This document shows, in pieces, positions 39,660 to 64,000 of a DNA stretch of 64,000 bases; positions within the stretch are counted from its first letter, which is position 1; each line of letters starts with the position of its first letter. The notes beneath the pieces were generated by a model. It was not told the DNA's origin. It worked only from the letters and a program-made list of their open reading frames with translations, and did not search any database. Origin of the DNA: Ceratodon purpureus (Eukaryota; Streptophyta; Bryopsida; Pseudoditrichales; Ditrichaceae); contig CM026429.1 of NCBI GenBank assembly GCA_014871385.1, positions 1,772,554 to 1,836,553 on the forward strand, read 5' to 3'. The translations under genes and the position numbers were made by a program.

Positions 39660-39661
<2 letters not shown>

Positions 39662-39704
<43 letters not shown>
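39662..39704. repeat. (TA)n dinucleotide microsatellite
   Basis: An uninterrupted run of about 20 TA units in the AT-rich region, followed by a short poly(A) stretch at about 39,719-39,732. Confidence 0.95.
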
Positions 39705-39705
<1 letters not shown>

Positions 39706-40045: not shown

Positions 40046-40327
40046 CTCCCTCTGTTCCACTAAAAAACAGTTGTTTGCTTAAAAAATCTGTTCCTAATCA
40101 AGATCGTTGTTTCTAAATTTGACCAACATGTTTCTAAAAATGTAATCTCCCTTAAATCTGATATTATTAAGGTAGAGGGCCCTAGAACCGACCACCTGTT
40201 TCCAAAACCAATCAGGCTAAAATGTACAAACTAGGTACATTTTAGCCTGATTGGTTTTGGAAACAGGTGGTCGGTTCTAGGGCCCTCTACCTTAGCAAAC
40301 AACTGTCTTTTAGTGGGACAGAGGGAG
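40046..40327. mobile_element. Stowaway-like (Tc1/mariner) foldback MITE
   Basis: The 282-bp element starts CTCCCTCTGTTCCACTAAAA and ends with its inverted complement (one mismatch in 20). It is flanked by TA on both sides, the target duplication of Tc1/mariner elements. The CTCCCTC(C/T)GT terminus is the Stowaway/plant-mariner consensus. About 60 bp on each side of the centre form an almost perfect palindrome (GGTAGAGGGCCCTAGAACCG and onward). The left arm carries roughly 85 bp absent from the right arm, so the foldback is asymmetric. There is no transposase, so it is non-autonomous. Confidence 0.93.
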
Positions 40328-40867
40328 TAGCATTCTAGTCCTTGGGAATACGCATTTGTTGTGACTAGTGAGTCACCCAATGGCCCATGGCCCATGGGTG
40401 TTGGTTTTGGATTCCTCTTGGTTACAGCGCCTACTGTAGACCTCATGGAGCACAAATATTATTCCTGCAATAAAGGTGCAGCATTTCTTGAATGCAGTAC
40501 TACAGTGAAATGGATAACTTCAGAGTTGCCTAGAGATCAAGTGATGTGCCATTGCTTGGAGGCAGTGGTTTAAGAGTGCATCGTTGGGGGTGCGCGTAGG
40601 CCTGCCGCGGGACAGGCTGTCAGCCACGAGCAGTACCTCGTTAGGAGCGTAAAGGACACATTCATTGTCCTCTGACGATATCATCCGCCTGAAAATACTG
40701 ACCCGAAGACCAAAAATCGCAGAAATACAGACCGTATAGATATACATCATAAAAATGTAACACATCGAATATCATCCAGTATTCATCCATAAAGATATTA
40801 ATACCATACGATACGAATACAAGATGAGATACGTATAAAATACTGTAATATGATTGACAGAGGGAGA

Positions 40868-40881
40868 TGGCGCCGGCGCCA
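40868..40881. repeat. 14-bp palindrome, exact copy
   Basis: TGGCGCCGGCGCCA in the context gggagat-P-ggtggg, which is shared with the copy at 52935. Confidence 0.95.
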
Positions 40882-41827
40882 GGTGGGACCTCTGCAAGTC
40901 ACGAAGTTGCAACTTTTGTGTACTACTGTCGTCCTCTTTTTTTGGCGGATGATGTGTGGGTATGGTGAGAAAGCGGCGGTGATTGATGTGCATTTCTATC
41001 TTCTTGGTGGACATCACTTTCTCTATCAAGGATTGTTGCAGCTTTTACTCTCTGCAAGTACGTATGAACATGAAGACGCAGTGATTAAAATCGTCGAAGC
41101 ATTACTACTTCATGTGTGTCTGTAAATTATCATGTCTGTCCGTGGGTATTGATTATATTCCGATTTTGAGGCATTAAAGTAGCCGGTGAGTTTGGAGTGT
41201 AGCACAGAAAAATGTGAAATTTTTCAGGCTTTTATAACAATAAAAGAAATCATATTTGTTGCTTGTGATCTTTGTCAGTCAGCTTGCGACTTTTGAAAAC
41301 CAGACCCGTAGACTTGCCTCGGTATGAGCCATGTCCTTGGAACATCATCATTTTGTAAATTTCTATTGATAAGAGAATAATTATAATTATCATTGTTCAA
41401 AGATTCAAATACCATTATGATATCATTATATTAAAATATATTCGTATCCCATTATCATTAAATTAATAAAACTCATGTTAATAGTACTGATTAAGATGAT
41501 TCTAAATATCATTATACATAATATCTTATCTTCATGGTAAAGTGGACTGAAATCTATCCTTCACAGCGTAGAGGAGCATTGCTAATCTAGATACCTTATA
41601 AAGATTCCCAGCAATCGAAAATCCCTCTGACAAGCATAGCCAGTGGGCCACATATGACAAAACATCGCACATGTTGCAGTTTTATCACTAAACTAAATTC
41701 TTTTAATGCTGGTTCACCAGAGCAGTCAATCCGAGCAAAGCTCTTAGGAGCCTCGCCTGCTATACACGGTTCGCAAAAGTCGAATGATAATGTCTGTGAT
41801 GAAAGTTGGCAAAAAGTTCGAGTGTCA

Positions 41828-41841
41828 TGGCGCCGGCGCCA
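41828..41841. repeat. 14-bp palindrome, exact copy
   Basis: TGGCGCCGGCGCCA, intergenic, preceded by 'tca' as in the array copies. Confidence 0.95.
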
Positions 41842-42162
41842 GTTAGGAAAATTATACACAAATTTATGTAAGTCAAGATGCTGCAAGACTTCTGTCTCTG
41901 TGACACTCCCGTTACCCGTTCAACCAAAACATACATTTCCATGAAACAGGAAGTTCAGAAGTAAAGAATCCATATTATGCTGCCTTTGCAGAGCCAAGAT
42001 ACTGCATTGTTACATACTAATACCGTGATATTTATCAAACTGAAGTACCCTAATGCCTTACAGGATTCTACACTGACAACGCTAGCTCCAACTTGCAGAA
42101 TCTCGCGGCAACGTTTTATCCAGTAAGCGCACTTGGAAGTCAAGACCTCACAGCCCCGAGGG

Positions 42163-42176
42163 TGGCGCCAGCGCCA
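42163..42176. repeat. 14-bp palindrome, one mismatch
   Basis: TGGCGCCAGCGCCA followed by TTTGAA, about 250 bp beyond the stop of the 209-aa minus-strand ORF. Confidence 0.9.
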
Positions 42177-42426
42177 TTTGAAGGTGGTATGAGGTGCCCA
42201 GTTTACTGGAAGTAGCCAATCTATTTAATATGAATATTCTGTAAGGTCTCGTGGCCTTGTCAGAATCATGTTAAGTCACACAAATTGTGCACCACTGTAA
42301 AAGGCGAAGTTTTGAGAAACCAGATCAAAACACCTCGAAGTTTTATATGAAGTCACGAACCACAGCTCTCCAACTAAATTGGTGGGGACGAACCACAGTC
42401 CCAACCGGGAAAAGATGGCCGAATTT

Positions 42427-43056
42427 CTAAACTTCACAGTGCGTCGGCTGGACCTCTACTTCCTCCCACTCCTGACCTTGAGCGACTAGGTAACGAGCAG
42501 TACCACGATGAATCCAAGTCCGAGCGCTCTCGTCTAGCTGCCAAAAATGCAAGACTTGCAAATTCAACCGTCCAGTCACATGCCTTGTAATCAGTACCTG
42601 TCTCGGCAGAAGGCTATCCACTTCGCGGTTTAGGTACAATACAACCCGGTCAGAAATCGGTCCAATGCTAGATCGCAGAATCAGGATGTAGTGGGGTTCG
42701 TATGGAAAGGAGTTTACACTGACCCCGTCTCTGATAGAAGACCACGAGAAGCTTTGCTCGGAAGAAGGATCCAAGTGTGGCAAAATCAACACTAGCAATC
42801 TGAACAATCGACTTGAAGTCAAGGCTCGAAACCAACCGAGTGTGAGGACTGGTTTGGAAAATATGGACTCTACATTTGGTTCAAAGTCGGAGTCGCTATT
42901 GTCACTCTCGTCACTAACAATTTGAGCGGTCCTCCCAATATCAGTCCACACCAAAGCATTACCAGCGATCATCGCATTCACTTCCTCGCATCTTGGAGGT
43001 GGACTGAATCTATTACGAACGACAGGGGCCAAACGAGGTCGCTTTCTCTTAACCAT
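42427..43056 (-). CDS. Orphan 209-aa basic/acidic protein with N-terminal KRKRPR
   Basis: Uninterrupted ORF. I start it at the first ATG (MVKRKRPRLAP), since the frame further upstream has only a non-ATG start. Residues 3-8 (KRKRPR) look like a nuclear localisation signal. An acidic Ser/Asp stretch follows (SDESDNSDSDFEP), then a hydrophobic segment with a Leu-rich helix (RLFRLLVLILPHL), then a C-terminal half that looks like a compact alpha/beta domain (HYILILRSSIG; VVLYLNREVD; TARYLVAQGQEWEEVEVQ). I do not recognise the family. The IHRG..RY/F..... W(D/E)E pattern near its end is also seen in the 334-aa protein at 60.5 kb; this may be chance. It lies in the palindrome-bearing block. Confidence 0.55.
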   Translation of the reverse strand: MVKRKRPRLAPVVRNRFSPPPRCEEVNAMIAGNALVWTDIGRTAQIVSDESDNSDSDFEPNVESIFSKPVLTLGWFRALTSSRLFRLLVLILPHLDPSSEQSFSWSSIRDGVSVNSFPYEPHYILILRSSIGPISDRVVLYLNREVDSLLPRQVLITRHVTGRLNLQVLHFWQLDESARTWIHRGTARYLVAQGQEWEEVEVQPTHCEV

Positions 43057-44505
43057 AGCGGCACACAATATCGATAGGGAGGCTATCACCAGATACAATA
43101 AGGCAAGCGAAGCAGTCGCTGAGATTTAAATGTTAGGATGCAATTTAGATCCAAGCATAGCGTCCACAGGCCAAGTCACTAAGTCTATGTTGGAGACAAG
43201 AAGTGATAGTGGGATCTAGTTCAATAAAATTCAATTGATTCAAACTAGTCGCAGGCTGGAGTAAAATAAATGAGACAAAAAGTAGGTAACCTATGTGTAA
43301 ACGTAACAAGCGCTGTCACTTCAAGTCTTTCAACCTTGATGCGAAAACGCTTTTATTATTCATAATCCTCTTTCAAATACTGCCATTACTGCCATATCTT
43401 AAGGGATCACAACGGAAACACATCTACTGACAATTTGGCGCACCTTTAGTATCTTTTCGCATTAAATTCACAACTTCAGTTTTGGCGCTTCTGACCTCAG
43501 TAGTTGTATAACACCAATCCCAGATCACAACTCTCCCAACAATGCGGACCGTGCTTTAACAGTTCATGTATTGCTCTTTGATCAGTGTTTACAATTACCA
43601 CATACCATTAGAGGGGTTAACAGGTCGGAATGGCAAGCACCCGAAGGAGAGCGGAAAGGACTTGTCTGAAGAGGGAGCGAAGAAGATGGCGGTTGCGAGC
43701 TGCTCATATCAGGAGGACTGCGGGCGACAACATGACGGGCGGTGCTGGTACATGATTTTGAGCATCGTCAATATTTTTGTAGCACTAACATGTGTTAAGA
43801 AGCAAATAGAACTGTCCCTCCCACTTTCGTGCTTGTTGTACATTGATCCCCGCTCTTGACTTCGGATGTACAATTAATTCTTCCTCTCGTAACACTTTGC
43901 GATGCAGAGTGTTGCTGCCTTTGCCATGCCAAGAGTCACTGTCCATTTGACTATGATCCCCGGATAACAAGGCAAGACAGCGCAGGAGATATTATGTTAC
44001 AGCAGGTCTCGTCGTTAGCCATTTCGGATGTTCCGGCATTCGATGTCTCCGAAGGTAGAATCAAGCGAGAGAATATGGGTTCTGATCAAGTAGCGGACGT
44101 CTTACATAATATCTCCAAATTCTGGGCAGATATCGTGAGTGAGGATGAGATGGGTGAGTGATCATAGACAGGAGTGTAGTGAGTCTGATTTCAAGCATTT
44201 CAGAATACATAGATCCGGGACATAATTTGAATGTGATGGCTAGCAGATCAGCGCATTAGGTTGTACAAGCATGTTGGGACGATTTGCACTCTAAGGAATA
44301 GCCTTCATTGAACACCGAGTTGTGAAGCCGTGAACAACTGAGTTGAAGGTGGGCGCAGTCGTGTTATTGCAAATATGACAAGGTTTCAGATAAGTTTATT
44401 ACTTATACAGCTGCTAGGCAGAAATTCATCTCTACGTTTCTCAATTCATCTCCCTAAATAACATCTGAACTGAACCTGTCATCATAACGGAGCTTGTCCA
44501 AAATT
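43057..44505 (+). other. Spacer with one possible internal exon (43908-44154)
   Basis: On plus, 43908-44154 is open, follows an acceptor (GATGCAG) and ends at a good donor (GG|GTGAGTG). It would encode a Cys-rich start (CCCLCHAKSHC) and an acidic/hydrophobic remainder (VADVLHNISKFWADI). A nearby upstream frame (about 43,685-43,747) is also Cys-rich (CSYQEDC, then GRC), but I could not join the two in phase. No function is assigned. The rest of the stretch shows nothing. Confidence 0.3.
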
Positions 44506-47500
44506 CTAAGTAGGGGTGTTTGCGATACCATAAGAGGTCCCGCTTATGGAAGGTTTAGACTGCGAGGCTAAACTGCCGACAAGGCCCAGGTGATGTTGCA
44601 GACTCATCTTCCGGTTATCCTCTTCTGCTATATCAATGTCAGGTTCGACGGAAATTTCTTTCAAGAACACGTGAAAAGCTGCTGCATCCTCCTCCATCGC
44701 AAGGATGTGTCTTCCACTTAGTTCACAGGCGGACACAGAGGAGCCTGCAAACGCAAGCAATGGGTAAGATTCTTGCAAACTGCTTCGCAGCTTATTTTGA
44801 ATCAAATAGGTTTAGGTGTTTAGAGCTCAAACTCAAGAAAACCGTACCGACACCGGCAGTCAAGTCAAGCACCGCGCTTCCCCTTTCGGTGCAAATTTCA
44901 ATCATAGACTCCATAAACGCGGGCGACTTCTGTTTTGAGCCGCGGAATGAGTCAACCCCGTCAACTCGCAAAAGGTTAGCGTCGGTCACAACGTTTTGAA
45001 GGACATCAGACTGGTCCGGGTTCCAGTCCATGACTTTACTCGCAATTTCGTTGAAATGGAACGCTTCGTTTTTCATGCTCTTCTTCCGTAGAACCTTAGC
45101 CTTGAACAACCGTTTCTGAACAATGACACAATGACACAGCACGTCATGAGTCACGTAAATTCTTACAACTTAAAATAAAGTCGCATGGATACAATGTTGT
45201 ACAACATTCTTACCCAGGCTGGAGTGAACGGCCTGTGGTTCACGACGTAGAATGTTCGGACGCAGTCCCAATCATGGAGCGAACTAAGGTCCTCGAGCTC
45301 CTCTGCTGGCACAAAGAGAAGGAGAAATCCAGAGTCTGAGAGGACCGCCTCAGCAATGTGAAATATGGCTGCAAAAGTGGACTTCTTCACCATGTTCCAC
45401 GTTGGAACATTTCCCAATACACCAGGCACCCTGTTATTGTCCGGTGTATCGCAAATAATCAAGTCGACGCAGTTGGGGCTAGCTACACCATCATGCTGCC
45501 GGAGAATGCCACCATTGATCTGACAGGTCCACAAAGGCACTATTAGAAAGACAAATTCAAATTATCAAAAGCAAGAATTATACAGCGACCATGAGAAGGA
45601 TGGTCCAATGGCGCCGGCGCCATGCCAATTTTATGAATTAGGTCGGTAAAGAAATGAAAGGTATCTATACGAATCTGCAACACACCATCCTGCCATCAAT
45701 CCATCAGATAACCCCTCGAAAAATTGACTTCGAAGCCAATTAGAAGTGCAGAAAGCATATACTGAATGCGTGCTTCGGCATTTGAGAACCTCTAATTACT
45801 GCATCAGAAATAAATGAGTAAGGGACTTGCTGTTGGCGCCGGCGCCATGTCTACCAAAAGCGATCTCCAGTGATACCTCTAAACAAAAGCTTTACCAGAA
45901 AAACTCGTCAATTATTGACGCAAATTACAGGTTAGGCGCCCATTGACTAGTGAAATGATATTGCGGCCCCCATAAGTAAATCAGAAAATAATCTCACACA
46001 AGTGAGGAGCACTTCGAACAAGCTGAGACGGGTATTCTAGACTGCAGACGGGAATTCAGGAAAATGGTAATCCGAGGCAAACCGAGAAGCTCGAATTAGT
46101 AAAGAGAGCCGTAGGCTTGCAGGTATACGATCACCACAAGAGCGCGGTACACAGACTGCTATATAACCATATGCAAATGAAGGTTTAAAATAACTCACCC
46201 GCTTGATGCAATTCAGGAAAGTGATGAACATCGATCGGTGAATGCCCTCAAGTAGCGACTCAAAGGCAATATTTAGGGACAATTTAACTGTCTCTGCCAC
46301 GCCATCGACAGGGAGGGCCATATATCTAACGAGGGGTATTGCATCCTCGCCAGCTTTATGAAATTTCTTCCCGGACTTCGAAGGCGGTCGTTTATGGGGT
46401 GCCACTTGACTGTTTAAACCGGCCTCCTGCTCACGTGTTTCCTTCACAATACGAGGCCGCAACGTAGGACCTCGACGATCACCCTCACCCTCAGCCGGCT
46501 TGCCAATCGGCTCTCCCTGAGTCTGGCGTAGAAACTGTAAATCGTCGTCTTCATCGGCAGTTCCCGATTTCGACATGTCCCCGAGAACCCCCCTAATGAC
46601 ATCATTCGCGTCTTCGATTTGCGAAATATCTCCCCGTTTTGATGATTCAATTAGGTCCTGCAGCTCAGTAAATAGAATGGGGCCATAATGCATCAGCAAC
46701 CCATTGTTAGTAACCGGGACGTAAACATAACTGACTCTACCCTCAAGCGCACCAAGTAGGTCAGACGATGGGGTGAGAGATACCATGTCACGGGCGCCAT
46801 TTCCATCGCGATCGGAGCTCTCAACCTGCGACTTGACCATCTGCAGTGTCTCCGAAAGAACCGCAGCCTTCTCTGGCAGGGACGCATCCATTGTAGCCTG
46901 GATCTGTAGAAGCACCTGATCTCTGAGGTTCTTGTCCGCGGAGTCGAGGTAGTCGGTAAATCCTTCACTGTCCTCGATATACCATCCTAGGCTCATCAAA
47001 TGCGGAGGATCATAGTGATCCAATTGGTATTGGGTGAAGCAACCGTCGGCGGTTAGACGTCGCCAGTCCTGAAAGACAGGGAAGTCCTTTAAATCCCCGG
47101 TTTCATTCTTTAACAATAGCTGCTCACCGAGCCACCGCACAAACCGCATGACACACCTCTGAACGGCCTTTTCTCCCAAGTCGTACATTGGCTGTTCCTC
47201 CCATGTCTTGTGGCGCAGTGGTCCTTTCTCTCCTGTGAATATCTCTGGGAAGAATCTGTCAAAGCCGAATTTCATTACATCCTCAAAGTAGTCATCCAGC
47301 CACTTCTTAGTGTCAGTCTTCATACGCAGGAAACCAATTCCTTTGTCCACCTTGCTTTTACCGAGAAGTTGCTCGAGTACATCACCAGCCCTCGAACGCA
47401 GCTGCGACACAGACACGACAATAGTCAACATAGACTCACCATAAACAAAAGCATGCAAACAAACCGCATTGAGATCGACCACTCTGAATGCCTGCTGCAT

Positions 47501-50500
47501 GTAATCTCAAAGTCACCAGATTCGAAACCAAGCGTTGCTACGGAAATCGACATGGAGCTCACAGCATATCCGCAATATGTAATGCAAATAATTCCAACTA
47601 GTATTTTAAATGCAATGTCGCAAAACCTAAGTTTCGAAAGAAGGATCTTGATCATTGTGGTAGACTAGGTCACTCGAAAAGGGGGTGGAGAATTTACCTG
47701 CTCCCACCAGGCTCTCCGATTTAGCCACTTCTGAAATGCGGCCCTCGTGAAGTCCAGGTCCGGAAAACTGTACTTCCTCTTCTCCTTACTGCCAGAATTC
47801 CATAACTGCAACACTCTTTTGATGTCAACCCCTTGGGCACCAACGAGAATATTAAGGTTGTCAATGGTCATTAAGCCAACCTTCTTGTCTTTGGCCCTTG
47901 CGCCACTGCGACTGTTGATAACCAGCTCCTCGATTAGATGCGGGTGATACTTGGGGTTGCAAAGTCGGAATATTTTTTTCATATAATCCATTTTTTCCTT
48001 CCGTAGCACCTGGGCCCCTGCGTGCTTCGCTTCCTCGATGGCCAGAGAACTTGGATTGTTTACTTTGTTGCGTAGTCGCTTTACTGAGTCTCGCTCCGCC
48101 ATGCTGATTTCACGCTGCGTTGATATGAACGACAAAAGAAATTAAACTCAAGTCAGTCTGTTGAACACCCCTGTTAAAGCTCGAAAGCGAAGCCAACGAG
48201 AACCTGGATTCGAAGTAAGAATCACTACGGGACAGACGAAGTACAGGAACAATTTATGAATCAGGTCAGTCTGATGGATTGCGAAAGTGTCCTGGGGTCA
48301 TGCCGCCGGCGCCATTTGGACTTAGTCGAAGAGAAGGATAGGGCAAAATGAATAGAAGCTGCTAAGAGACTTTAACGTGCTTATCGTCAGACCTAGTGTC
48401 TTGACCAAAAATCAAATGCCGGCTGCTAGCTGCTAGATGCGTTGCCCCAGTTTTGCAGATTATGTTCGATACAATATTCAAACAGTCTATGGAACGATGT
48501 AACATCCTATATTTTGAGAAAATCACGTATTGAACGTGTTCGAGGATGTATAAATCTGCAGGATCAGGTTAATCGAGTGTTGACATCACCTATACTCTCT
48601 CAGCCCATCTACACAGTTGATTTTGACTGGTGATTTTATCGTGAAGCCCGTTTGACATGTCTGACTTCGTAAGCGATAAAGTCCCCACTACTTTAACATG
48701 GAAACATATTCTATCATCAAACGAATTCCCAAAATAGTGAGCTTGGTAACGAATTATCCTCTGATCACAGATGCCTTTTAAGTTTACTTTTAAATGCCTC
48801 ATCGAAGGTCGTCTAAGCAGAACTGATACAGTTCACTGATAGTTTAGCGATCCTCTTGTCAATATCATGTGAACAGAGCTAATCTTTCACGAGACTATTA
48901 TCATAACACAGAATTCTGATGAACGCGAAAGACTGTTGGCGGCAAACTCACTCAAACGTAATCGACTAGAACATAAGAGTCAAACAGAGACTGGCGCCAT
49001 CTCAAAGAACAGTGCATGGTCTTCTCATCGCAAGCGTACCAACAGCGATCCAATGACAAACTCAGCAAGGAATTTCCAACCACGTTTCATACCTTGAAGT
49101 ATACTTCGCTCACAGCATCACACGTCATCTTATACCAACGCCCCTTGCAAACATCCTTGATGCGCTCAATCTCTGTCTCTGTAAAATAGACCTTGTACTC
49201 AGTGGGATCTCGGCTGGCTATTTGCATTACTTCGAATATTGTGTGGGCCAACTGTTTCTTCACCGTCGAGTTCACCGTGCCACTGAATTCATACAACTGA
49301 ACGTTAAGTTATTGAAACCAAATGATCTGCTACTTATCATCACAGCCAAGCATATCCCGGCCATGGGCATGCAAACCGTGACATACTGTGCAATCGAAGC
49401 TTCACTACAAATATCTGACAATTTTGAAATTATATCTCGAGTGAGAATGAAAGCTAACCACTACAATTTTGGTGGAGTATAGGTTAGAGACATACTCGTT
49501 GATGTCACGCATGAAGTTAGAGATCCAGCCACGGTCCTCTTCGGAGTCATTGAGAACGAAACAGTTCACCGAAATAGGTTCCCCATTACATTCTCTGATG
49601 TGGCGCATCCACGCCAAGGCCCTATGATTCCCATCCCATACATTGACATAGTGTCCTATAATTTTCTCCAAAATCGGCCTGTTTTCGGGGTCAGACTCGC
49701 ATTTCTCTCTCAGTTCTTGGTCGAACTTTGCAGACAGAGCTGCCCACCGCTCATGGTCCTCATGCTCCGTAAGAACGAACGGACCGGGATCCCCGCAGCT
49801 TGTTACCCAAAAATTGGCACCCCAATCGCCAATATGAAAGCCTTCGTACACAATCTGTACATCTGCCTCCAATGCTTGTCGAACCCAGGTCGTCGGCTTC
49901 AATCTACAGAGAGGAATTTGTAAACGAAGTGGCTTTACCTTTTTGACCGCAAGACGCTTATGAATGTTAAGTTGGCTGCATAATGCCTCTTGGAACTGCT
50001 CAAATGTTGACACGGTAGGCTTGTCATCGGGTTTTCTCAAGATGGTTTCGCCAAGTCCGTCGTCATCATTCTCTGGTTCTGATTCTCCATAATCAGCGTC
50101 GCCAACAATAGCAGTGTCAACCTGCGACTGATAAAACCACTAAGTATGAGGTAAATGATCACTGAGGCAACGCTAACATTAATAAATAACAATACAGAGT
50201 AACAGCTGAGAACCCGCAAGGTTGCTGGTAAGGCTGCTGGCAAGAGATATCCTTCATCAATCAAATAAAACGTGGATCAAAACGTAATAAATTCCAGTTC
50301 AATTAGTAGTAGTATCCAAGTACAGAGGTCATTTTCTGATCACTGCACTCGGTAGAAATGGTATCTGGTACTGTCAATGAAACATGAACTGCACGAGCAC
50401 GGGAAAAGGTTAATGTTCCAATTTGTAAGTGTAGTAGAGTTTCCCTAGTCGAAAATAGAAAATAGAAAGGTGCGAGAATTCGAGCTAATGAACAATGATA

Positions 50501-53507: not shown

Positions 53508-53848
53508 TGTGAACCGCCACCTTGTAAACCGGATCACGGGATGCAGGACCACTGTCGCTATTCCGGGATATGGAGTGCTTCGCAGCTGACAAGTCATGGA
53601 TAAGCATGATTGACCTTTGTCCTATATATAGGACACCAGTAAGGGCCGTTGGCACCACAGTAAATGCCAAACGTAATACGCAACGGAAGCAACTACTCGT
53701 AGATCTCAACGTTAGAAACTATTCTGAGGCACAGCTTCTAGTTTATACGAAATCGGCAATTTGAATTGAACAGGTTAAAAACTGGCGACACTTTTCATCT
53801 CGACCGTTTCAATCGCGCACTTTCAACAGAACGATTAGAATTTGATTC
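53508..53848. promoter_or_regulatory. Shared divergent promoter region with a palindromic TATA
   Basis: About 340 bp (450 if the later Met is used) separate the inferred starts of the methyltransferase-like gene (minus) and the transposase/SWIM gene (plus). CCTATATATAGG at 53621-53632 is a perfectly palindromic TATA-type element that could serve either direction, about 115 bp from the minus-strand ATG and 217 bp from the plus-strand ATG. Confidence 0.5.
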
Positions 53849-56800
53849 ATGAGTCCGTTGCGAAGTCCTAACGACTGTATTAAGACCTGTATAAGTGCGA
53901 CGACATGGTGTCCGCAAATCTCATTCCACCGAACCAAACATAGAAGTTTGCAATTTACGATGGAACCACCAGCAGCTATACCGCGAGTTTTGAATTTAGC
54001 CTTAGCTGGAGGAACTGCGAGATTTGATTGCTCTGGTTACGGTGATTCAGTAGAAACCCAAGAGTCCGATCTAGGGGAGTATTTTAGCCTAAAAATCGGA
54101 ACATTGCATATTAAAAAATTTGATGTACATGGAGCACTCTGCGGTCGATTCTGGCCCGAAGAAAAGAATGGCCAAAAGATCTTCACGTTGCCTTTTACAG
54201 TAGATCATGGCGAAGTTTACCTAGTACATGGGGATCCTCAGATGGGAGTACTACCCCGGGAAGCGGAAATGCAACCAGATAATAAAGAGTATGACGAGCC
54301 TTTGGATTTCATTCTTTTGGAAGATACGTCCTGTGATAGCCCTTACAGCGAGGGGGGGTTTTCTTGTGGAAGTCCTGAGTTTCAAGGGGGCTCTGGTATG
54401 CGCAGGGCAGATGCTCCAGGTAGACGAAACCTCTGCCTCGAGGACTATCCAGTCGAGCCGATTGGTACCATGGATCCTCGGAGCACGGTGGTTGCACCCG
54501 GTTCCCCTGATGTAACAACTCCACAGCAGAGTCCCACGTCAAGCAATCGATCACAATCTCCCCCGTGCGGTCTGACTCCAGTAGAATCCCTGCAAGCGGA
54601 GTCGGAGGGTGAACTCCAGGCTCAATCTTGTAAGTCACCAAGCTCTCCTCCAAGTCAAAGGGCAACGGTAGCTGAGGACGAAGACTCGCCCTTTCCCGGT
54701 GCGTTCTCTATATATCCGAACTTAATGGATCTGCCTGGCAAGGGGTCCACTGGTGAGCTCGCGAGTCTCCCCCTTGTAGATTTCCCACACACAAAATGCA
54801 GGTATCTGCCGAGGGAGTATGACGGAAATCATATTTTCGAAGTTCCTCCAGTGACAGATGACGATTACATCACGACGGATTTATCTTTCGATGGGCATCC
54901 TTGGATAAAATCCAACAGCTACAATTCAGCACGGCTCAAGGACGCAGGGCTGCGTGTTCGAAAGAGTTTTTGTGCCGGAGCATTTGAATGTAGAAACAAA
55001 GATTGCCCCCATGTCGACCTCCATGGTGGACCAAACACACTATATTGGGATGGCCGATGTCATACAAGGCCAATTCCTGGAACAACGCCAACAGACAGCG
55101 ATTGGAGATGTTCCTTTTGTCATTTTACACCATATAGCGTACACCAGTGCAGCGCTGTTCTATGGATTATCAGCCATGAATCAGAGTTTCTAACGCGAGC
55201 GGTTGTGCACACCGGAACACACTCTCATCTCTCACCAGCAGGGCGAAGTCGGGGGGCGTATGTCAACATGACGGATACAATCCACAAGTTTTTAGATGAC
55301 CAGCCCTGGCTGCTGGCTGCACCAGGATGGGTAGGATTTCGATGTGCGCACAGGAACTTCTTTGATTTAGTAATGCAAAGCACAACAGTAGAAGAGAGGG
55401 AGATGCTGAACGAAGAAGACCTTGTCCGCATTCTAGAGGATGCACCACCTTTCCACGACAAGACTCGAGTAAAATATGTCGTCACTAAGTTCAGGTCTGA
55501 CCAAGAGCGCTGCATTTTGGCATTGAAGCGTTACTCCCGGTACTGTTACATTCAAGACAGTCATTTCCCTGGACAGTCAGATGAAGGCATCAAATTTGTA
55601 TTTAAGATGTCGACTGTTGGTGTCGGGAGCGGCGTGGATTTGGTAAGGCGAATGACTTCAGGAGATTTAAAGGATTCATTCGTAATGTTTGACCATGTTA
55701 AACGAATCCATCATTGGACAACAATGGCAGCCCATGTGTATGATCATAATCTTCAGCGGTTACTCACCATAGCGGTTTGTGAGATGAAGTTGGAGAACAC
55801 GGAAAATCAGATAAAATTTTGGAGGCTCCTCAATAGTGCAATACAAAAACGAGGGATGCCTAAACCAAAATTCAAGGGCTTCATGGCAGACGCTGCTCCG
55901 GCGAACTACAACGCTGTAAGGGCAGTTTACGGATTGGTGGAGGGGTTGGACGGAAATCCCGACGACGTTGACAATGATGTCCCCAACCCTGAACATCCTA
56001 TACTTAGAACGTGCTATTTCCACTTCGTGCAAAGCATCCGTGATCACACCAATAAGTGGGTTATGGAGAAGTTCCGAGTTCATCATGTCGAGATGTGCAA
56101 ACGATGGGCATTTGCACCAACAAACATGGAATTCCGACAGATTGCTGAAGAATTAGTAGATTGGTGGCAATCATCTGGAGCAGTACAAAAATGCAACGTC
56201 AAATTCATGCTTGCATGGAAAACGTGGTGGATGGCAAGGAGGACATTATTTGCTTATCACCACGTGAACGAACTTGATCTGGATTTAGAGAGCGAAGCAC
56301 TGATTCCAAGTACAAACTTATGCGAACCCGTCCACAGCTCCATGTGGGCAACATCTGCATGTGGATACAAGGTAAAAATGGATTTATACACCGTGTGTGC
56401 AGAGGACATGACCCGGTCATTACTCCAGCAACAATTCTGTCTAGCGGCCTTTAAAGGCCAACTCAAGGGTTCTGGTCCGTCGAAGGCTGACCTGTTGCTC
56501 AGAAGTGCAGCAAGGTCACACCGGCCAGAAAAAGTCGCAATGGCGGTGAAGGCAGCAGTGAAGGGAACTGAGTTCCATTCCAGAGGCGTCGGATTGGAAG
56601 GAGAGCTAGATAGGACTCAGAGCGTTAGAATCGGAGCAAGAATTGGTAGGCGAACTTCTGCCCGATCGCATCGACCCGATAAAGACAGCCGAACTATCAG
56701 AAGGCCGCTCAAAGATCAACCTATATCTACGCCGCCACCAAGGAAACGAAATGCCTCTGACGTAAATGTACATGAAGTCAGGGATCAAAGGCAGGGCACA

Positions 56801-58234
56801 TTCGCAGCATCAGCAAATCCGCTCAGCAACTCTACCGGGATGGCGCCGGCGCCAATTGGCACTGCATCAACAACAGTGGGAGGGCAATGGCAGAAGGGGA
56901 GTCCATACCAAGGGGGTCCCATGGTCGGCGTTACACCAACAATGAGCGATTTCAGGCTAAATCAACGTCAGAATCAGGCCACTGCGGTTTCAAATCCGGG
57001 CACTAAGAGGCTGCAGTCGCAAGCTGAGTCACAGATATTAGATCCCCATCACGATAGTGATTTTTACCCTGCTCCACAATATTATCCGCAAAGCACTATG
57101 TGGAGGGCCTCTTGCCTTCCGCCTTCTACTCAGCAATATCTTACAACTCAAATATTGTCATCATCCTTAAATCCTACCCATGAATCATACGTGGGGCAGT
57201 CCGGAATTCGAATCCCTGTTCCTAGACCAAACATCTCGCGGCAGAGTTATGGACATGGAAATCATTCCTTTTATGCACCTTCCAACTCAACGCATCAGAC
57301 AATTGTTCGTCCCGGAAACACACAATATCAACACCAGGAAACACTAGTCGCACAGCCTATACTGCAGTTCGGGAAGCCGGTCTTGGAAAGAGAAGTAGAC
57401 CACAATGAATGGGCAATCCGTAGATCCCTACCGGGGGAGGATCCCAAATGTTCAGCATACGTTGATCGAAATGGGAGATGGGAGTCTTGTGGTCGTCCTA
57501 TCAAAGGTAACTCGAATCTCAGTGTCGCTGCTCCATCTTTCTATGGCACATGTGAGATTCGTTTCACAAGGAGCTTCCAAATCTATTGGTTCTGTCCAAG
57601 ATCAGGGTGTGTGGGAAGCGACCATGTTCTCCACATGAGAGGAGGAAAACCGCCAAAACTTCCAAGGGTCTGGCCAGTTGATATGGGTACGAAGGTCAGT
57701 ACCTCAGAGGCCAATGAGCTGGGTAGAGCAGGATTCCTTTTGGTAGATGATGCTTCAGTTGAGGAGCAACTCAAACTCCAACAAATTGAGTTTGCAAGTA
57801 ACGTCTCTCCAATGAATCCGCTAAGAAGACCCCCTCGGAGGGCCGGGAAGAAAGTGAATCGGAGATCATTGACAGACAGTGGGGAGTCCAGAAGGGATAA
57901 CGGGTTACGGATGGTTGCACAGGTTCGGATACTGAGTCAATGCAAGGAGGATTCTGTTTACACGTTCAATTTGCACACTGTGTCAACGACTACGAACAAA
58001 TCTGTAAATTACGTAATCACCATCAGTGAAACGCCGTCATGTACTTGTCCATTCTTTGTAAACAGCGTGTCAGACCACAAGCCTGGTCATTTTTACATGA
58101 CTTGTAAGCATATGTACCACATTTACAACCGGGTGCTCGGAGTACCGCTCACTGATGAGCGGCCACACCAGGCAACATTGAGTCGAGCTGAAGTGGAGGA
58201 TATAATGAAGAGTTGGAGACCTACTCCAACGTGA
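53849..58234 (+). CDS. MULE-like transposase core with C-terminal SWIM zinc finger (1461 aa)
   Basis: A single uninterrupted ORF. Start is the first ATG; MEPPAAIPR at 53960 (residue 38) is an alternative. After a Ser/Pro-rich N-terminal third comes a Cys/His cluster at ~374-450 (FECRNKDCPH, then CSFCHF, ending HTGTHSH) resembling WRKY-GCM1/FLYWCH-type DNA-binding zinc folds of Mutator-like transposases. The DDE-like core follows: an Asp in VMFDHVKRIHH (~615), then hydrophobic strands, then FMADAAPANYNAVRAVYG (Asp ~681), then CYFHFVQSIRDH (~724). A basic/Gln-Pro-rich linker leads to CTCPFF...CKH (C1398, C1400, C1419, H1421), a SWIM finger. In the family such proteins bind element ends or act as domesticated regulators. 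The third acidic residue is not certain. I see no terminal inverted repeats around it. Confidence 0.78.
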   Translation: MSPLRSPNDCIKTCISATTWCPQISFHRTKHRSLQFTMEPPAAIPRVLNLALAGGTARFDCSGYGDSVETQESDLGEYFSLKIGTLHIKKFDVHGALCGRFWPEEKNGQKIFTLPFTVDHGEVYLVHGDPQMGVLPREAEMQPDNKEYDEPLDFILLEDTSCDSPYSEGGFSCGSPEFQGGSGMRRADAPGRRNLCLEDYPVEPIGTMDPRSTVVAPGSPDVTTPQQSPTSSNRSQSPPCGLTPVESLQAESEGELQAQSCKSPSSPPSQRATVAEDEDSPFPGAFSIYPNLMDLPGKGSTGELASLPLVDFPHTKCRYLPREYDGNHIFEVPPVTDDDYITTDLSFDGHPWIKSNSYNSARLKDAGLRVRKSFCAGAFECRNKDCPHVDLHGGPNTLYWDGRCHTRPIPGTTPTDSDWRCSFCHFTPYSVHQCSAVLWIISHESEFLTRAVVHTGTHSHLSPAGRSRGAYVNMTDTIHKFLDDQPWLLAAPGWVGFRCAHRNFFDLVMQSTTVEEREMLNEEDLVRILEDAPPFHDKTRVKYVVTKFRSDQERCILALKRYSRYCYIQDSHFPGQSDEGIKFVFKMSTVGVGSGVDLVRRMTSGDLKDSFVMFDHVKRIHHWTTMAAHVYDHNLQRLLTIAVCEMKLENTENQIKFWRLLNSAIQKRGMPKPKFKGFMADAAPANYNAVRAVYGLVEGLDGNPDDVDNDVPNPEHPILRTCYFHFVQSIRDHTNKWVMEKFRVHHVEMCKRWAFAPTNMEFRQIAEELVDWWQSSGAVQKCNVKFMLAWKTWWMARRTLFAYHHVNELDLDLESEALIPSTNLCEPVHSSMWATSACGYKVKMDLYTVCAEDMTRSLLQQQFCLAAFKGQLKGSGPSKADLLLRSAARSHRPEKVAMAVKAAVKGTEFHSRGVGLEGELDRTQSVRIGARIGRRTSARSHRPDKDSRTIRRPLKDQPISTPPPRKRNASDVNVHEVRDQRQGTFAASANPLSNSTGMAPAPIGTASTTVGGQWQKGSPYQGGPMVGVTPTMSDFRLNQRQNQATAVSNPGTKRLQSQAESQILDPHHDSDFYPAPQYYPQSTMWRASCLPPSTQQYLTTQILSSSLNPTHESYVGQSGIRIPVPRPNISRQSYGHGNHSFYAPSNSTHQTIVRPGNTQYQHQETLVAQPILQFGKPVLEREVDHNEWAIRRSLPGEDPKCSAYVDRNGRWESCGRPIKGNSNLSVAAPSFYGTCEIRFTRSFQIYWFCPRSGCVGSDHVLHMRGGKPPKLPRVWPVDMGTKVSTSEANELGRAGFLLVDDASVEEQLKLQQIEFASNVSPMNPLRRPPRRAGKKVNRRSLTDSGESRRDNGLRMVAQVRILSQCKEDSVYTFNLHTVSTTTNKSVNYVITISETPSCTCPFFVNSVSDHKPGHFYMTCKHMYHIYNRVLGVPLTDERPHQATLSRAEVEDIMKSWRPTPT
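56841..56854. repeat. 14-bp palindrome, exact copy inside a coding region
   Basis: TGGCGCCGGCGCCA within the transposase/SWIM ORF, read in frame as part of Met-Ala-Pro-Ala-Pro-Ile (codons starting one base earlier). It is the only copy inside an exon. Confidence 0.95.
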
Positions 58235-58589
58235 ATAATCGACTACCAATCCTTTCATATGAAAGCGGTGGTTGTCGACTTTAGTCGTTCTCGCAGGCAT
58301 GGACATAGCTGCACAGTCTACAAGTTTAATAGATCAAACAGCAAAGTCATGATGCAACTCTTCGAGTTTGAAGTTTGAAGTACAAATTTTGAACTGATAG
58401 TTTGAAGTACAAATTTTGAACGATTTTTGCTTTTCCGAATATACAATTAAATAAACGACGATGTCGTCATTATATCTCTTGCATAAGGCGGCGGAAACTT
58501 ACTGTCTTTAATTCTGAATCAGTGACCCTGGACTGAGATTTCATGGGCAGTTTCAAATTTGTAAAAATAACGGCCATAATCCTCTCAAA

Positions 58590-58603
58590 TGGCGCTGGCG
58601 CCA
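58590..58603. repeat. 14-bp palindrome, one mismatch
   Basis: TGGCGCTGGCGCCA, flanked by CAAA and TTTG so that symmetry extends to 22 bp. It lies 182 bp upstream of the ATG at 58785 and ~80 bp upstream of the TATA box. Confidence 0.92.
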
Positions 58604-58684
58604 TTTGAATGAAGCTCCAATAGCGAGGCCACTGTTCAATTATGCTGCTTAAGATGAATGTTGAGACGCGTTCCGAATGAACCC

Positions 58685-58693
58685 TATAAATAG
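58685..58693 (+). promoter_or_regulatory. TATA box of the first RING-like gene
   Basis: TATAAATAG, 92 bp upstream of the ATG at 58785 and downstream of the palindrome. Confidence 0.55.
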
Positions 58694-58784
58694 TGTAGCA
58701 ACTCTTCGCAGACAAGTTATCAACGCTTCAAGCGAGTAGGATTTAGATCATTTCGTCTTAGCCAGTGTTGCTTCCAGCTCCGTC

Positions 58785-59868
58785 ATGTCGTCGATTGCTT
58801 TGTCCCAGTTTGGTACGCACTACTCTAGGATAACGTCCATCTGTTACCACAAACATTTGATTGCAACAGAGTCGAAGAGAAAGCTAGATATGTCAGAGGA
58901 GAAATTGAGGAAATTGAAAGAGGAATTTGCGGTGGAGGGGTCCTCGTATACTGAGGAAGGCGGTTGTTTCAACGCCCTCGCTGAGGCGGAGGCTATTCTC
59001 CGTGACACCCACTCACGTTTCTTAGTGTGCTACGAGTCTGTAAAGGATGCAGTTGTGGACGCAGCCATGATTGATAATGCTACAGCTGACCCAGCAGTCC
59101 GATTTGAGACAAGGGCGAACGTGATTGGACTGCGAGAGAAGATGAGACAGTTGAGGGAGGACCGAGCTCGGGCAGAGTCGACACTCCGCAACATGGATGG
59201 GTATGGTTCTTACCGTTCCGTTATTGTCTTACTACTCGAGGCAGAGCGTGAAACTGATATCGTGCGCGCGGAGTGGCATGAGATTGAAGCTGATCAGTCC
59301 CTTACCATTGAAATTCTACGTCGCTATAGCGAACACACACAGTTAACACTCTCGTCCGGAGTTGTACACCCGAGTAGCATTGCTGAAGGGGACACTCGAC
59401 GATGCGAGATGTGCGGAACTGGATTTCCGGCAGCCGAAGTGATTCCTACACCGTGCGGGCACTATTACCATTTGTTTTGTCTCGCAATCCGAGTTGCAGT
59501 AGATCCGGAATGCAGTAACGCTGAATGCAGCCTCCCTTTCCCAATCCCGTGGATGCAAACCTTCGGGTTTCCATCCATTCTACTATCGGAAAACAGCACG
59601 GAGGCAATACAGAGTTCCTCCTCCTCAGAGGAAGAAATTGCTGCCGGTAAGGTCTTAACCTAAGGTCGACGCTGTTTGAATCCTATTTAATTATATATTC
59701 GGAACTCTAGAGACAATGATGCTGATGTTGTGTGTATTTTCATCCTTTCATGTAGCCGACGACAGTGGAGATATTGGTGCAAATGAGCTGGGAACACAAG
59801 AGGTAGAAAGTCCTGCACAAGGAAATTCCTCACCAACACCGCTCCAAAAACGACCTAGGGTCCAATAG
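58785..59868 (+). CDS. Coiled-coil protein with C-terminal RING-like zinc finger, paralogue A
   Basis: Exons 58785-59646 and 59756-59868 (G|GTAAGG ... TGTAG|CC) encode 324 aa. The N-terminal two-thirds are Glu/Arg/Leu-rich helical coiled coil (SRFLVCYESVKDA; ETRANVIGLREKMRQL; ERETDIVRAEWHEIEAD). Next is a cysteine/histidine module at ~205-250: RRCEMCGTGFPAAEV, then CGHYYHLFC, then CSNAEC, i.e. C-x2-C-x12-C-x-H-x2-H-x2-C...C-x4-C. This resembles RING-H2 (ubiquitin-ligase type) with unusual last spacing. The tail is acidic, then basic, ending TPLQKRPRVQ (probable NLS). It is paralogous to the gene at 62570. A palindrome and TATA box lie upstream. An E3-ligase role is inferred only from the zinc pattern. 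Confidence 0.78.
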
Positions 59869-60239
59869 ATTTTATGTTGGGATAGATTGTAAGTCTGGAA
59901 GAACACAGAAGCGGCCGTAGTTTTGTCAAAAATGGCTATCGGATGCACCACAATTACGGATTGTTACTTAGAATGAAGCATTTGCTAGTATCTGCAACAT
60001 CAGATTGGTTGCGGATTTTTTGTGAATACTCGATATAGAATGGAGAACATATGTGAAGATAGATGGCTTTAAGATATCATAATGTAACGGATCAAATAAT
60101 ATAACAGCTCATTCTGTCATCATGAGATTAGCTCTATCAATTAATTGAGGACCTAGATGAAATTCACACAAACTCAGAGCTCTTGTACAATCCCAAATTC
60201 TGAAATAGAAATTGCAGCATCTTGCTCGCTGCCGTGGAA

Positions 60240-60253
60240 TGGCGCCGGCGCGG
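60240..60253. repeat. 14-bp palindrome, two mismatches
   Basis: TGGCGCCGGCGCGG; the left half and centre are intact. Confidence 0.85.
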
Positions 60254-60293
60254 ACTGATACATAGTTGGAGCAAATGACTTCATCGAACCGAT

Positions 60294-60307
60294 TGGCGCC
60301 GGCGTCA
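60294..60307. repeat. 14-bp palindrome, one mismatch
   Basis: TGGCGCCGGCGTCA, same form as at 53054. Confidence 0.9.
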
Positions 60308-60530
60308 AGTGAGACTACTCAAATATTCTGGTAACCGTTGTTGCATTGAAGTCTAAAGGAAAGGGCATAAACGAATCGGTGCACTTAAAACGGTACAAAT
60401 GCCGTACTGCATCACCATAAGCCACAAAGATCCGACATTTTGATTTCCATTATGCGAATCACACAACCCTTTACGACGATAAGTGAATTTTCATACAGCG
60501 AACGACAATAAATCTTTAGCTGCACAGACA

Positions 60531-61535
60531 ATGTGGATGGTCATTCAATCAATTCATATATTCTCTACTTTAATCATGAGTATGGTCATACAGAATTTCG
60601 TAAAGGCTTACCGTCCGGATCCCCCTAGTCCGATAGAAATCGCAAATGTAACACCGAATAACGTAACAATTTACTGTACTGAGAAAGATTCTATAACTGG
60701 GGAGACTCGGCAACAAAACATAATAAACAGTAAAATTTTGAAGAATTCTGTTGTGCAGGTTCGCATTGCGAATCTGGATGACTATGATTTGGCAGACTTT
60801 GGAGAAAGTCAGTATTGTGAGTTTGAGATGTTGTATAGAGGATACAATTGTGCGATCTTATGGAGTACTGACAAGCTCTGTGTTTGGGAAAATCCTGAGG
60901 TTGTGCTCGAACGAAACCGATATTCGGAGCCACACCCCCCAAATTGTCCAATATGTGACGAGAAAGCGATGCTAGGCCACCAGCAGTGTCGATGGAGAGT
61001 TGAGAAAGATGGAGTTTATGTTTCTCAGTATGACATACATCGAGGACGCCATCGATTTGTAAAAAAAGCTGATTGGGATGAGGAATTCCTTTCCGAGGAG
61101 CTAGTCAATGAGTACAACATATCGATTCGGAATAATCTTGAGCATGAGCTGATATTATCTGGGCAAACCGCAGAGGGCACAAAAGGATTGCTCACCCTGC
61201 TCCCTCGGAAAACTGCTAAATTTTCGTTAGTTCGTGGAATAGACGACGAATTTCTTTACACCTGGATCTGTCATTTCCGAGTTGCCAAAACCGGTGCCTA
61301 CCGCAATGGAGTGGTTCTCTGGATTCCACCTCCATACGACAGTCTCTCCCCTATTCGATGTATTGATTGTTCTTGGAAAGTCGACTCCAATGGTATTTGG
61401 CTAGATTCCAGCGGCTGCGGTCGAGTTGGACCAAGCTGGATAAAAATGCATGATTGGCTATTTCATGAGCGCGACTCAGTTGAAAAGTACAGTAAACCAA
61501 GCAAAAGACCGAGACGTGAACACCAAGAACTATGA
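60531..61535 (+). CDS. 334-aa protein with an internally repeated Cys/Trp module and KRPRR tail
   Basis: Uninterrupted ORF. The first ATG is at 60531 (MWMVIQSIHIF); the frame further upstream has only a GTG. The N-terminus has a hydrophobic stretch (VIQSIHIFSTLIMSMVI) that may be a signal or membrane segment, or may be untranslated if a later Met is used. Two similar modules follow, each starting VTIYC/ISIRNN and ending in a Cys/Trp motif: NCPICDEKAMLGHQQCRWRV..DGVYV (~145-175) and PIRCIDCSWKV..NGIWL (~280-300). The tail SKRPRREHQEL is a likely nuclear signal, as in its neighbours. I do not recognise the family; a duplicated beta-rich domain with a possible metal site is the most I can say. 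Confidence 0.65.
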   Translation: MWMVIQSIHIFSTLIMSMVIQNFVKAYRPDPPSPIEIANVTPNNVTIYCTEKDSITGETRQQNIINSKILKNSVVQVRIANLDDYDLADFGESQYCEFEMLYRGYNCAILWSTDKLCVWENPEVVLERNRYSEPHPPNCPICDEKAMLGHQQCRWRVEKDGVYVSQYDIHRGRHRFVKKADWDEEFLSEELVNEYNISIRNNLEHELILSGQTAEGTKGLLTLLPRKTAKFSLVRGIDDEFLYTWICHFRVAKTGAYRNGVVLWIPPPYDSLSPIRCIDCSWKVDSNGIWLDSSGCGRVGPSWIKMHDWLFHERDSVEKYSKPSKRPRREHQEL

Positions 61536-61643
61536 TACATCGAGGTCTTTCTCGGCAGTGCGCCCATTAATATAAATCAAATTTCTTCACCGGAACAGAT
61601 CGGTCAACATAAATTGAGAATGGGAAGTAGTCTAAGTAGATGA

Positions 61644-61657
61644 TGGCGCCGGCGCCG
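61644..61657. repeat. 14-bp palindrome, one mismatch
   Basis: TGGCGCCGGCGCCG, about 110 bp beyond the stop codon of the 334-aa gene. Confidence 0.92.
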
Positions 61658-62047
61658 TTTCCACTTCAAGAATTTGCTTTCCGTTTCTTCTTTTATTCTT
61701 CTTCATAACATGCGATTCTTTCTTAGAAATTTCAAAACAAATAACTTTATTTCATCCGGCTAATTGGTATATTTACTTTTATCAAAGATGAGTGAGTGAC
61801 AAGCCAAAGTTAAAGAATGTAGTGATTACACGATAAGGGTGCTAATTTACTATTATACTATCCTCGTTAGTAAAAGGAGACAATTTAGCTGAAGTTAACG
61901 TTCGAGATAGCAAATGACTTCAATACCAAGGATTTGATAATGGCGATCCATCATAGTCAGTGTACATACCACCATCCCCAGTATTTGCGAAACTTCTAAC
62001 TCTTGAAACTTAATAAATCCCAAATAGATTTTAACTTCACCTTGATT

Positions 62048-62061
62048 TGGCGCTGGCGTCA
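62048..62061. repeat. 14-bp palindrome, two mismatches
   Basis: TGGCGCTGGCGTCA. Confidence 0.85.
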
Positions 62062-62320
62062 TCTGGTGCTCGAGATTGATTTCCTGACACGTCCCGTTGG
62101 AGGCATTAAATGAACTCCCTAAACTGTACAACCACCGGCTGCTTTGTTAAAAAATCTTGGAAAATATAACCATCAGTAATATGGCAGAATTATTAATGAT
62201 GCCGTAAGTACTTCTCGTCGGATTTTAAAAATGCCGTTAGTGCTTCTCGCCGGACAGCGTATTGCAGTTCGAATTTGCAAAGGGCTTACTAGGTTGTTAA
62301 ATGACAAGCTAATGGTCGAA

Positions 62321-62334
62321 TGGCGCCGGCGCCA
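62321..62334. repeat. 14-bp palindrome, exact copy
   Basis: TGGCGCCGGCGCCA followed by ATTGAA, 236 bp upstream of the ATG at 62570. Confidence 0.95.
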
Positions 62335-62569
62335 ATTGAACTCGGGGGGGATCCCAAGGTTGCAACCGTTAAAATCAATCCATCCACTCAAATTCGTTCA
62401 GGAAAGTTATCTCATGAAATGTATATGAGACTCTCTCCAGGATTCTCCGTCACTCCAAATCAGAACAACAAAGAGGAGGCTTGTGATATTCGGTAGACTG
62501 TAGCTTTGGGTCGATCCACATTGTAGCAGATTGAGAAATTGTCCCTTCTGCATCGACGGCATTTCAAGG

Positions 62570-63607
62570 ATGCCGCCATCTCGAATTGCGTCAATACTGG
62601 CCCATAAGGCAGAGTTAGTTATCGATGCAGAACGGCGTGTTCAGATTGCCCGAATTGAAGAGCGCAGTGTTTGTGAGCAATTCGAGTTAGACGTGCCGGA
62701 GCTGCCGGAGGAAGGGGCACAGCGCAATGTCGTGCTGGAAGCGGATGGGGTTTTGCGCGATGTTCATTCTCGATATTTGCTGTGTTTAGCATCAGTTAAG
62801 GATGCCTTAACTCAGGCGCAGAGGATAGATGCGATGACAACCGATGCAATTGTAAGGATGGAAACTAGAGCGAACTTGATGGAGCTAAGAGAGAAGCAGT
62901 TAGAACTTCACCACGACCGTCTGCGTGCGGAGCTTGATTTACGCGCCCTTCCTGGATTCCAGGACTCATCGAGTATCTTAGCAAAGCTTCTGAAAACTCA
63001 AAGGGAGTTGGAGAAACTTCAGGAAGAGTACCAGGAACTTCAGGCCGATCGGCGCATGGCGGTCGACACTCTAAGAAACTACGGTGAACACACTCAGCTC
63101 AGCTTGTCGAAGCGAATTCATCTCCCGAGAATTCCTTTACGAGATGACGGAAGACGTTGCGAGATGTGCAACACTGGATTTCCGGCAGGGGAAGTGGAGA
63201 TTTCACCGTGTGGTCACTTTTATCACATCTTTTGCTTGGCGATTCGAGTCGCGATGTACCCAGAATGTTGCGGTCGTGGGTGCACTGTTCCGTTTCCTGC
63301 ATGCTGGCTTCAGAATTACGGGTTCCCTTCGCAGACAGTCGCTGACTCAGACACGGGCAGCTCGTCTACCGACAACGACAGTATTAACGGTGTGGTTGCT
63401 CCGTCCACCTCATCCTCCTTTTAGTGAAACTTGATCATTTCGCATAATGAGGACTCACTAACTATGAAGGGTCTTGCCTGTGATATTCTTACAGACTTGG
63501 AAGACGTAAACGAGGTGCTGAGTGTTCAAGCTGATCAAGTAGTCCCCGGCCCCAGCACTTGTCGGTCCCCGCCAACGCCGCTCTTTAAGCGGCCAAGAGT
63601 TTTGTAG
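62570..63607 (+). CDS. Coiled-coil protein with C-terminal RING-like zinc finger, paralogue B
   Basis: Exons 62570-63389 and 63495-63607 (G|GTGTGG ... TTACAG|AC) encode 310 aa. I start at MPPSRIASIL, since the frame above has only a TTG. Layout matches paralogue A: a helical coiled coil (SRYLLCLASVKDA; ETRANLMELREKQ; RELEKLQEEYQELQAD), then GEHTQLSLSKR, then RRCEMCNTGFPAGEV, CGHFYHIFC and CCGRGC (C-x2-C...C-x-H-x2-H-x2-C...C), then acidic/Ser-rich sequence and the tail TPLFKRPRVL. Exon 2 is exactly 113 nt in both paralogues and the intron sits at the same codon phase, so they arose by duplication after the intron was present. E3-ligase or DNA-bound scaffold roles are both conceivable; neither is shown. 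Confidence 0.78.
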
Positions 63608-64000
63608 GCTTGGTTTGCTGTACCCGGACCAACTTACAAACTCGGATCTAGTTACAAACGCTTTCTTTATGATGCAAGCGTTTTTTTAGGCACACTCAAG
63701 CGAATATACAGTTTTTACCGAATTAGATCCTGTCGCAGTCATTCTTACTATTCTTAATGTTCTGTAATATTTTTAATATTTATGGTCCCATTTCATATAC
63801 AAAACTGCCATGTATGACCTCTACCATTTATATCTGTATTATCATTTAGAATGTGGCAATCTGGTCAACTCTGAGGGAGGTAGCACAGCAGGAGCCCTTG
63901 AGCATTATGAATCTTTCCTTTTCATTGGCATAATCCACATGTTCATAGTGAGACTTATGGAAGAGTGTATGACTGCCCTCTGGTCGCCGGCGCCATCTTC
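63608..64000. other. Spacer running off the window
   Basis: Nothing recognised except one more palindrome at the extreme right end, so the palindrome-bearing block probably continues beyond the window. Confidence 0.6.
63982..63995. repeat. 14-bp palindrome, two mismatches
   Basis: GGTCGCCGGCGCCA; the right half is intact. Confidence 0.8.

Follow-up and report, generated by a model that had tools for sequence, protein, structure and literature searches.

A dispersed palindrome in a transposon-like block of the moss Ceratodon purpureus: candidate recognition site for a ParB-methylase

The window analysed here is a stretch of 64,000 nucleotides of Ceratodon purpureus DNA (contig CM026429.1, positions 1,772,554 to 1,836,553). 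A 14-bp palindrome, TGGCGCCGGCGCCA, is repeated along its right-hand part, in a block in which a gene predicted to encode a protein with both ParB-fold and DNA-methylase domains (hereafter ParB-methylase) lies beside a transposase-like gene. On balance, the palindrome is best read as a sequence recognised by a dimeric protein that a giant, transposon-like moss block encodes; the most likely binder would be the ParB-methylase.

Number, confinement and architecture of the sites

At up to two mismatches, TGGCGCCGGCGCCA has 20 matches in the 64-kb window, all located within 40868-63995. By chance 0.04 are expected per window, and the highest number found in any of 100 shuffles is one. Matches rise to 23 at up to three mismatches, against 0.92 by chance, and none is found 5' of 40868. 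The original prediction, made from the sequence alone, had listed about 21 copies, had seen no full copy in the first 40.8 kb, and had held that the abundance could not be fortuitous. All three statements were confirmed by these counts: each of the 21 positions hosts a site (nine exact, eight with one mismatch, three with two, and 52265 with three). The additional three-mismatch matches at 46786 and 47892, both in predicted exons, were excluded from the 21-site statistics and included in the 23-site figures. The block and its sites, in window coordinates, are listed below.

40573..64000, block containing every site; its left limit is approximate and its right limit lies past the window
40868..40881, exact site, intergenic; the same 27-bp context is found at 52928-52954
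41828..41841, exact site, intergenic
42163..42176, site with one mismatch, intergenic
45609..45622, exact site, intron 5 of the ParB-methylase gene
45834..45847, exact site, intron 5
48301..48314, site with one mismatch, intron 3
50694..52954, intron-1 array of degenerate repeats; it holds sites 50706, 51336, 51903, 52265 and 52628, and has 52935 at its edge
53054..53067, site with one mismatch, intron 1
56841..56854, exact site, the sole coding one of the 21
58590..58603, site with one mismatch, 195 bp before the RING1 ATG; flanks TCAAA/TTTGA
60240..60307, site pair (60240 with two mismatches, 60294 with one) upstream of the S1-like gene
61644..61657, site with one mismatch, intergenic
62048..62061, site with two mismatches, intergenic
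62321..62334, exact site, 249 bp before the RING2 ATG
63982..63995, site with two mismatches, intergenic

Because five or six sites belong to the array, about 15-16 can be taken as independent. Given local base composition, a share of about 0.53 of chance sites is due in the block, and the probability that all 16 roughly independent sites fall inside it is about 4e-5. Both chance and GC content were rejected as origin of the sites on the basis of the shuffles and of this composition-corrected figure. A position matrix derived from 15 of the sites scores at least 10 at 22 positions of the block (20 of these exceed 18, and two score 11.4 and 11.5), but at none across the left 40.5 kb; as the matrix was trained on its own sites, information comes only from the zero on the left side and from the lack of scores between 11.5 and 18.7. 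Neither the exact 14-mer nor a 12-mer combined with 'palindrom' had matches in a literature search, and the extended 24-bp motif has none in viral contigs.

The 14-bp core is bordered by conserved symmetric flanks, TCAAA on the 5' and TTTGA on the 3' side. They were defined on 15 sites, omitting all array members except 51903, as well as 52935 and 63982. Flank columns hold 0.21-0.55 bits each, compared to null levels of 0.16 (95%) and 0.29 (99%), and four of the five reach about the 99% level. Farther than about 5 bp from the core, outside the array, information is near null. Lone half-sites are rare, nearly absent, in the window. Symmetric flanks and rarity of half-sites indicate that the unit is the full site with two-fold symmetry, a design that a dimeric DNA-binding protein would need. 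The palindrome spans 16 bp at 45609. At 58590, where a symmetry of 22 bp had been reported, flank symmetry reaches 5 bp on either side, extending the total to 24 bp, but one pair at the centre is broken.

Comparison of the flanks also led to reject the notion that the site is a piece of a longer dispersed repeat, except in the intron-1 array and in the 27-bp pair formed by 52935 and 40868. Six of the 21 sites lie in or beside the array. Sites 51903, 52265 and 52628 are contained in a tandem array with a period of 362 (51763-52730), and 50706 and 51336 in additional copies of the same repeats. In the array units around 51012 and 51639, collapsed half-sites are found, ATGGCGC or ATGGCGG being fused to AAACAATTC; these are consistent with relics of deletions between short direct repeats.

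Under the gene models described below, ten of the 21 sites fall in introns of the ParB-methylase gene (seven in intron 1, one in intron 3, two in intron 5), ten are intergenic, and one is coding. The earlier count of 20 non-coding sites out of 21 is thus upheld, and 20 of 23 are outside predicted exons when all matches are considered. The coding share of the block is 48%; one coding site among 21 has a P of 2e-5 (4e-4 with 16 independent sites), and three coding matches among 23 a P of 5e-4, though codon constraint by itself might also explain the scarcity of sites in coding DNA. A location 180-300 bp before an ATG, also proposed for several sites, holds for 58590 (195 bp), 60240 and 60294 (291 and 237 bp) and 62321 (249 bp), but 48301 is intronic in the model.

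The block differs from the left part of the window in composition. The observed/expected CpG ratio of non-coding DNA, sites masked, is 0.875 in the block and 0.643 on the left; medians of 1-kb segments are 0.889 and 0.626, respectively (Mann-Whitney p 7e-8). The best 3-mer change-point is at 42.0 kb, and the eight best all fall at 40.5-44.0 kb. By CpG and 3-mer content the block starts near 40.5-42 kb. Its weaker CpG depletion fits a long-unmethylated element, and equally a foreign origin. Neither terminal inverted repeats nor a target-site duplication were recognised in 38-64 kb among the longest 25 of 69 pairs, the right end being beyond the window.

Genes of the block

The genes of the block were modelled solely from their open frames and splice signals; the main models are listed here.

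44506..53507, minus strand, ParB-methylase gene, 8 predicted exons, 1146 amino acids
53319-53507, 49496-50121, 49093-49282, 47698-48114, 46199-47401, 45214-45519, 44848-45115, 44506-44744, minus strand, exons of the ParB-methylase gene
49496..50121, minus strand, ParB/sulfiredoxin-fold exon (VWDGNHRALAW), with homologues and fold matches
44506..45519, minus strand, N6/N4 DNA-methylase exons (PF01555)
53508..53848, intergenic region (divergent promoter) separating the ParB-methylase and transposase-like genes; zero sites
53849..58234, plus strand, transposase-like gene, 1461 amino acids from the first ATG; second ATG at 53961

The ParB-methylase model is an open spliced frame with GT..AG borders at all seven introns, and it is through this predicted splicing that the two domains are joined in one protein. 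The ParB exon has nine homologues at E<=1. Among these is the C. purpureus locus M758_UG071500, a short form without the GNHR residues, located on a 112-Mb record taken to be the U chromosome from the locus tag. An origin of this exon from phages was rejected, as tblastn gave no match in phages. No helix-turn-helix was found in the protein. The methylase exons match PF01555 with 28.5 bits (cut-off 26.7) and, weakly, DpnA (E 0.0065), CcrMI and RsrI. Motif IV is degenerate, reading DTPD by eye; the DpnA alignment puts it on DPPY at -3.2 bits.

The transposase-like frame was started at the second ATG in the exon and placement analysis. By eye, the protein features N-terminal Cys/His residues, a DDE-like core and a C-terminal SWIM-like CxC..CxH motif; this reading stays by eye because the AF2 model was too poor for a fold search. 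Homologues are P0001, P0002 (query, region 540-1000) and L001; with the whole protein as query (words from the first 500 residues only) none was retrieved. L001 matches PF00872 (Transposase_mut) below cut-off, with an E of 0.038, and no transposase match in Pfam was obtained for the window protein, P0001 or P0002. L001 (1-4101; contig CADCWO010000080.1) comes from a metagenome-assembled genome of an uncultured Synechococcales, and the relative it encodes is apparently interrupted by an intron at about 2090-2180; the contig is a probable eukaryotic contamination of that genome. The promoter region shared by the two large genes features a perfect 18-bp palindrome with a TATA core, TGTCCTATATATAGGACA (53618-53635).

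Four smaller genes are predicted at the sides of this pair.

42427..43059, minus strand, single-exon open reading frame, 210 amino acids, no Pfam family; starts MVKRKRPRL, resembling a nuclear localisation signal by eye
58785..59868, plus strand, RING1, RING-like, 2 predicted exons, C-terminal KRPRV
60531..61535, plus strand, S1 self-incompatibility-like protein (PF05938, 23.9 bits, cut-off 24)
62570..63607, plus strand, RING2, RING1 paralogue; RING models below cut-off

RING models are all below cut-off for RING1 too (best E 0.011). The two paralogues are identical at 121 of 273 aligned residues (44%). With the site masked, no similarity is left between the regions upstream of the two genes, and the site is retained in both, 195 and 249 bp before the ATG. 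Keeping it in the comparison gives an upstream alignment score of 65, while shuffles reach 64 at most. TATA-like words are seen by eye 94 and 99 bp 3' of the site start in the RING1 and RING2 upstream regions.

Candidate binder, comparable systems and alternative explanations

The original prediction had envisaged a dimeric binder encoded by the block, of transposase, ParB-like or methyltransferase-like type, and the gene content of the block matches these types. The symmetry of the site and the presence of the ParB-methylase gene speak in its favour, as does, weakly, the transposase-like gene; the binding itself is inferred. Nothing was found pointing to a recombination site, another of the options put forward. 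In the mechanism proposed, a dimeric protein of the block, first of all the 1146-residue ParB-methylase, would recognise the scattered palindromes, and intron 1 of its own gene holds an amplified array of this putative target. Occupancy of many sites would mark the whole, presumably mobile, element as self. This may keep the element expressed or unsilenced, or modified, or its genes co-regulated, in the manner of VANC on Arabidopsis VANDAL elements. A more specific version, distinctly tentative, is that the palindrome works as a parS-like self-address: the ParB-methylase would load at the intron-1 array and at dispersed sites, and coat or mark the transposon for self-recognition and anti-silencing.

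The closest counterpart is Sola1-1_Ec32 of Ectocarpus, a 21.5-kb transposon in which a gene encoding a ParB-like/DNA-methyltransferase of 1104 residues lies on the strand opposite to the transposase (PMC12477816). The moss block is similar in size (about 20 kb), and its protein likewise combines ParB-like and N4/N6 methylase domains in some 1100 residues (1104 vs 1146), its gene lying on the strand opposite to the transposase-like one. The block differs because found in a land plant, because its transposase-like gene was not placed in Sola1, and because it has extra RING-like and S1-like genes. Binding and modification of the element that carries it have been suggested for the Ectocarpus protein, but a target sequence is named in none of the passages of PMC12477816 concerning it. 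The moss block appears to carry the ParB-methylase system into land plants, and supplies a 14-24 bp candidate target that makes the binding suggestion directly testable.

Arabidopsis VANC proteins are described as binding short motifs and causing loss of methylation; the motifs, frequently repeated in tandem, are found within introns of VANDAL elements and in their upstream regions (PMC5735166, PMC10398659). Both systems share a short motif that is dense in non-coding parts of an element with several genes, intronic as well as upstream, and that is arranged partly in tandem. The VANC21 motif, YAGTATTAY, is 9 bp long and is reported in arrays of single orientation (PMC5735166), whereas the moss motif is a palindrome of 14-24 bp. 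In the Pfam scan of block proteins, neither of the VANC domains DUF1985 and DUF287 was hit at E<=10, unannotated small exons being outside the scan. If the interpretation favoured here is true, the block would be a second, unrelated case of VANC-like, motif-based self-recognition of transposons. Bacterial ParB-parS, Noc-NBS and KorB-OB are systems in which a ParB-fold protein binds short palindromes, several of which are often present on one replicon. The moss block similarly combines a ParB-fold protein and several copies of a short palindromic candidate site; its protein is in contrast eukaryotic, fused to a methylase and devoid of a recognisable helix-turn-helix. Should the parS-like version hold, a bacterial-type DNA-partition fold would serve transposon self-recognition in a moss.

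Other explanations have been weighed. The sites might be operators through which a host factor, for example of the E2F/DREAM type, co-regulates a lineage-specific cluster of host genes, the block being immobile. GGCGCC is an E2F core and TTTGAA a CHR element, sites are found 195-291 bp before the RING1, S1-like and RING2 genes, and TTTGGCGC words occur at 43434, 43481 and 62046, and as reverse complement at 53198, none being present in the left 40.5 kb. The E2F-type TTTGGCGC context is however found at only one of the 21 sites (62048), nearly half of the sites lie in introns of a single gene, the divergent promoter of both large genes has none, and the left flank, with its ordinary host families, is similarly devoid of them. 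We regard this explanation as rather unlikely. Less credit still is given to the idea that the sites are bound by the transposase of the block, as the internal and subterminal sites bound by TNPA in En/Spm elements. The transposase-like gene would suit it, but the sites are spread over 23 kb, also in mid-intron, rather than gathered at the ends, and no ends were recognised.

Equally improbable is a passive spread, by which a satellite-like or micro-mobile repeat would have multiplied by duplication, no protein being bound to it. Five sites do lie in a repeat array, another shares its 27-bp context with a distant site, and site quality is bimodal; but outside the array flanks are near null beyond about 5 bp, the conserved part is symmetric, and the site persists between two promoters otherwise lacking detectable similarity. 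The N6/N4 methylase domain and the cytosine-rich core would fit in turn a methylation target kept abundant by the methylase of the block, reminiscent of HIP1, an abundant word in cyanobacteria. Motif IV of the domain is however degenerate, and predicted coding DNA is avoided by the sites; this is the least probable of the alternatives graded. The hypothesis of an endogenous giant virus was set aside: all four queries lacked a relative in viral contigs, in a scan that required short exact peptide patterns and did not search for hallmark genes, and the predicted genes carry introns.

Minor features and left flank

KRPR-type stretches resembling nuclear localisation signals were noticed by eye in RING1, RING2, the S1-like and the 210-residue proteins. 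In the S1-like protein this is odd, as its start resembles, again by eye, a signal peptide. The S1-like family is described in a passage of PMC10619864 as confined to tracheophytes and mosses. Several Pfam matches below cut-off were disbelieved, among which Terminase_3, TehB, Seryl_tRNA_N, Beta-lactamase2 and CDC13_N.

Exons of the left flank encode members of ordinary families (Myb_DNA-bind_4, Mito_carr and Amidase, in three of the four pieces scanned). The region adjoining the block (34000-40000) is very AT-rich (26-31% GC), with CpG observed/expected ratios of 0.2-0.3. Just left of the block edge, at 40044-40329, is an inverted-repeat element, which we take to be Stowaway-like, with TACTCCCTCTGTTCC ends and a nested perfect inverted repeat of 60 bp. 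A U2 small nuclear RNA-like sequence (93.2 bits), perhaps a pseudogene, is found at 32345-32528 on the minus strand, and about 80 perfect AGGCAC hexamers are found at 10844-11322, a tract in which several frames are open on both strands.

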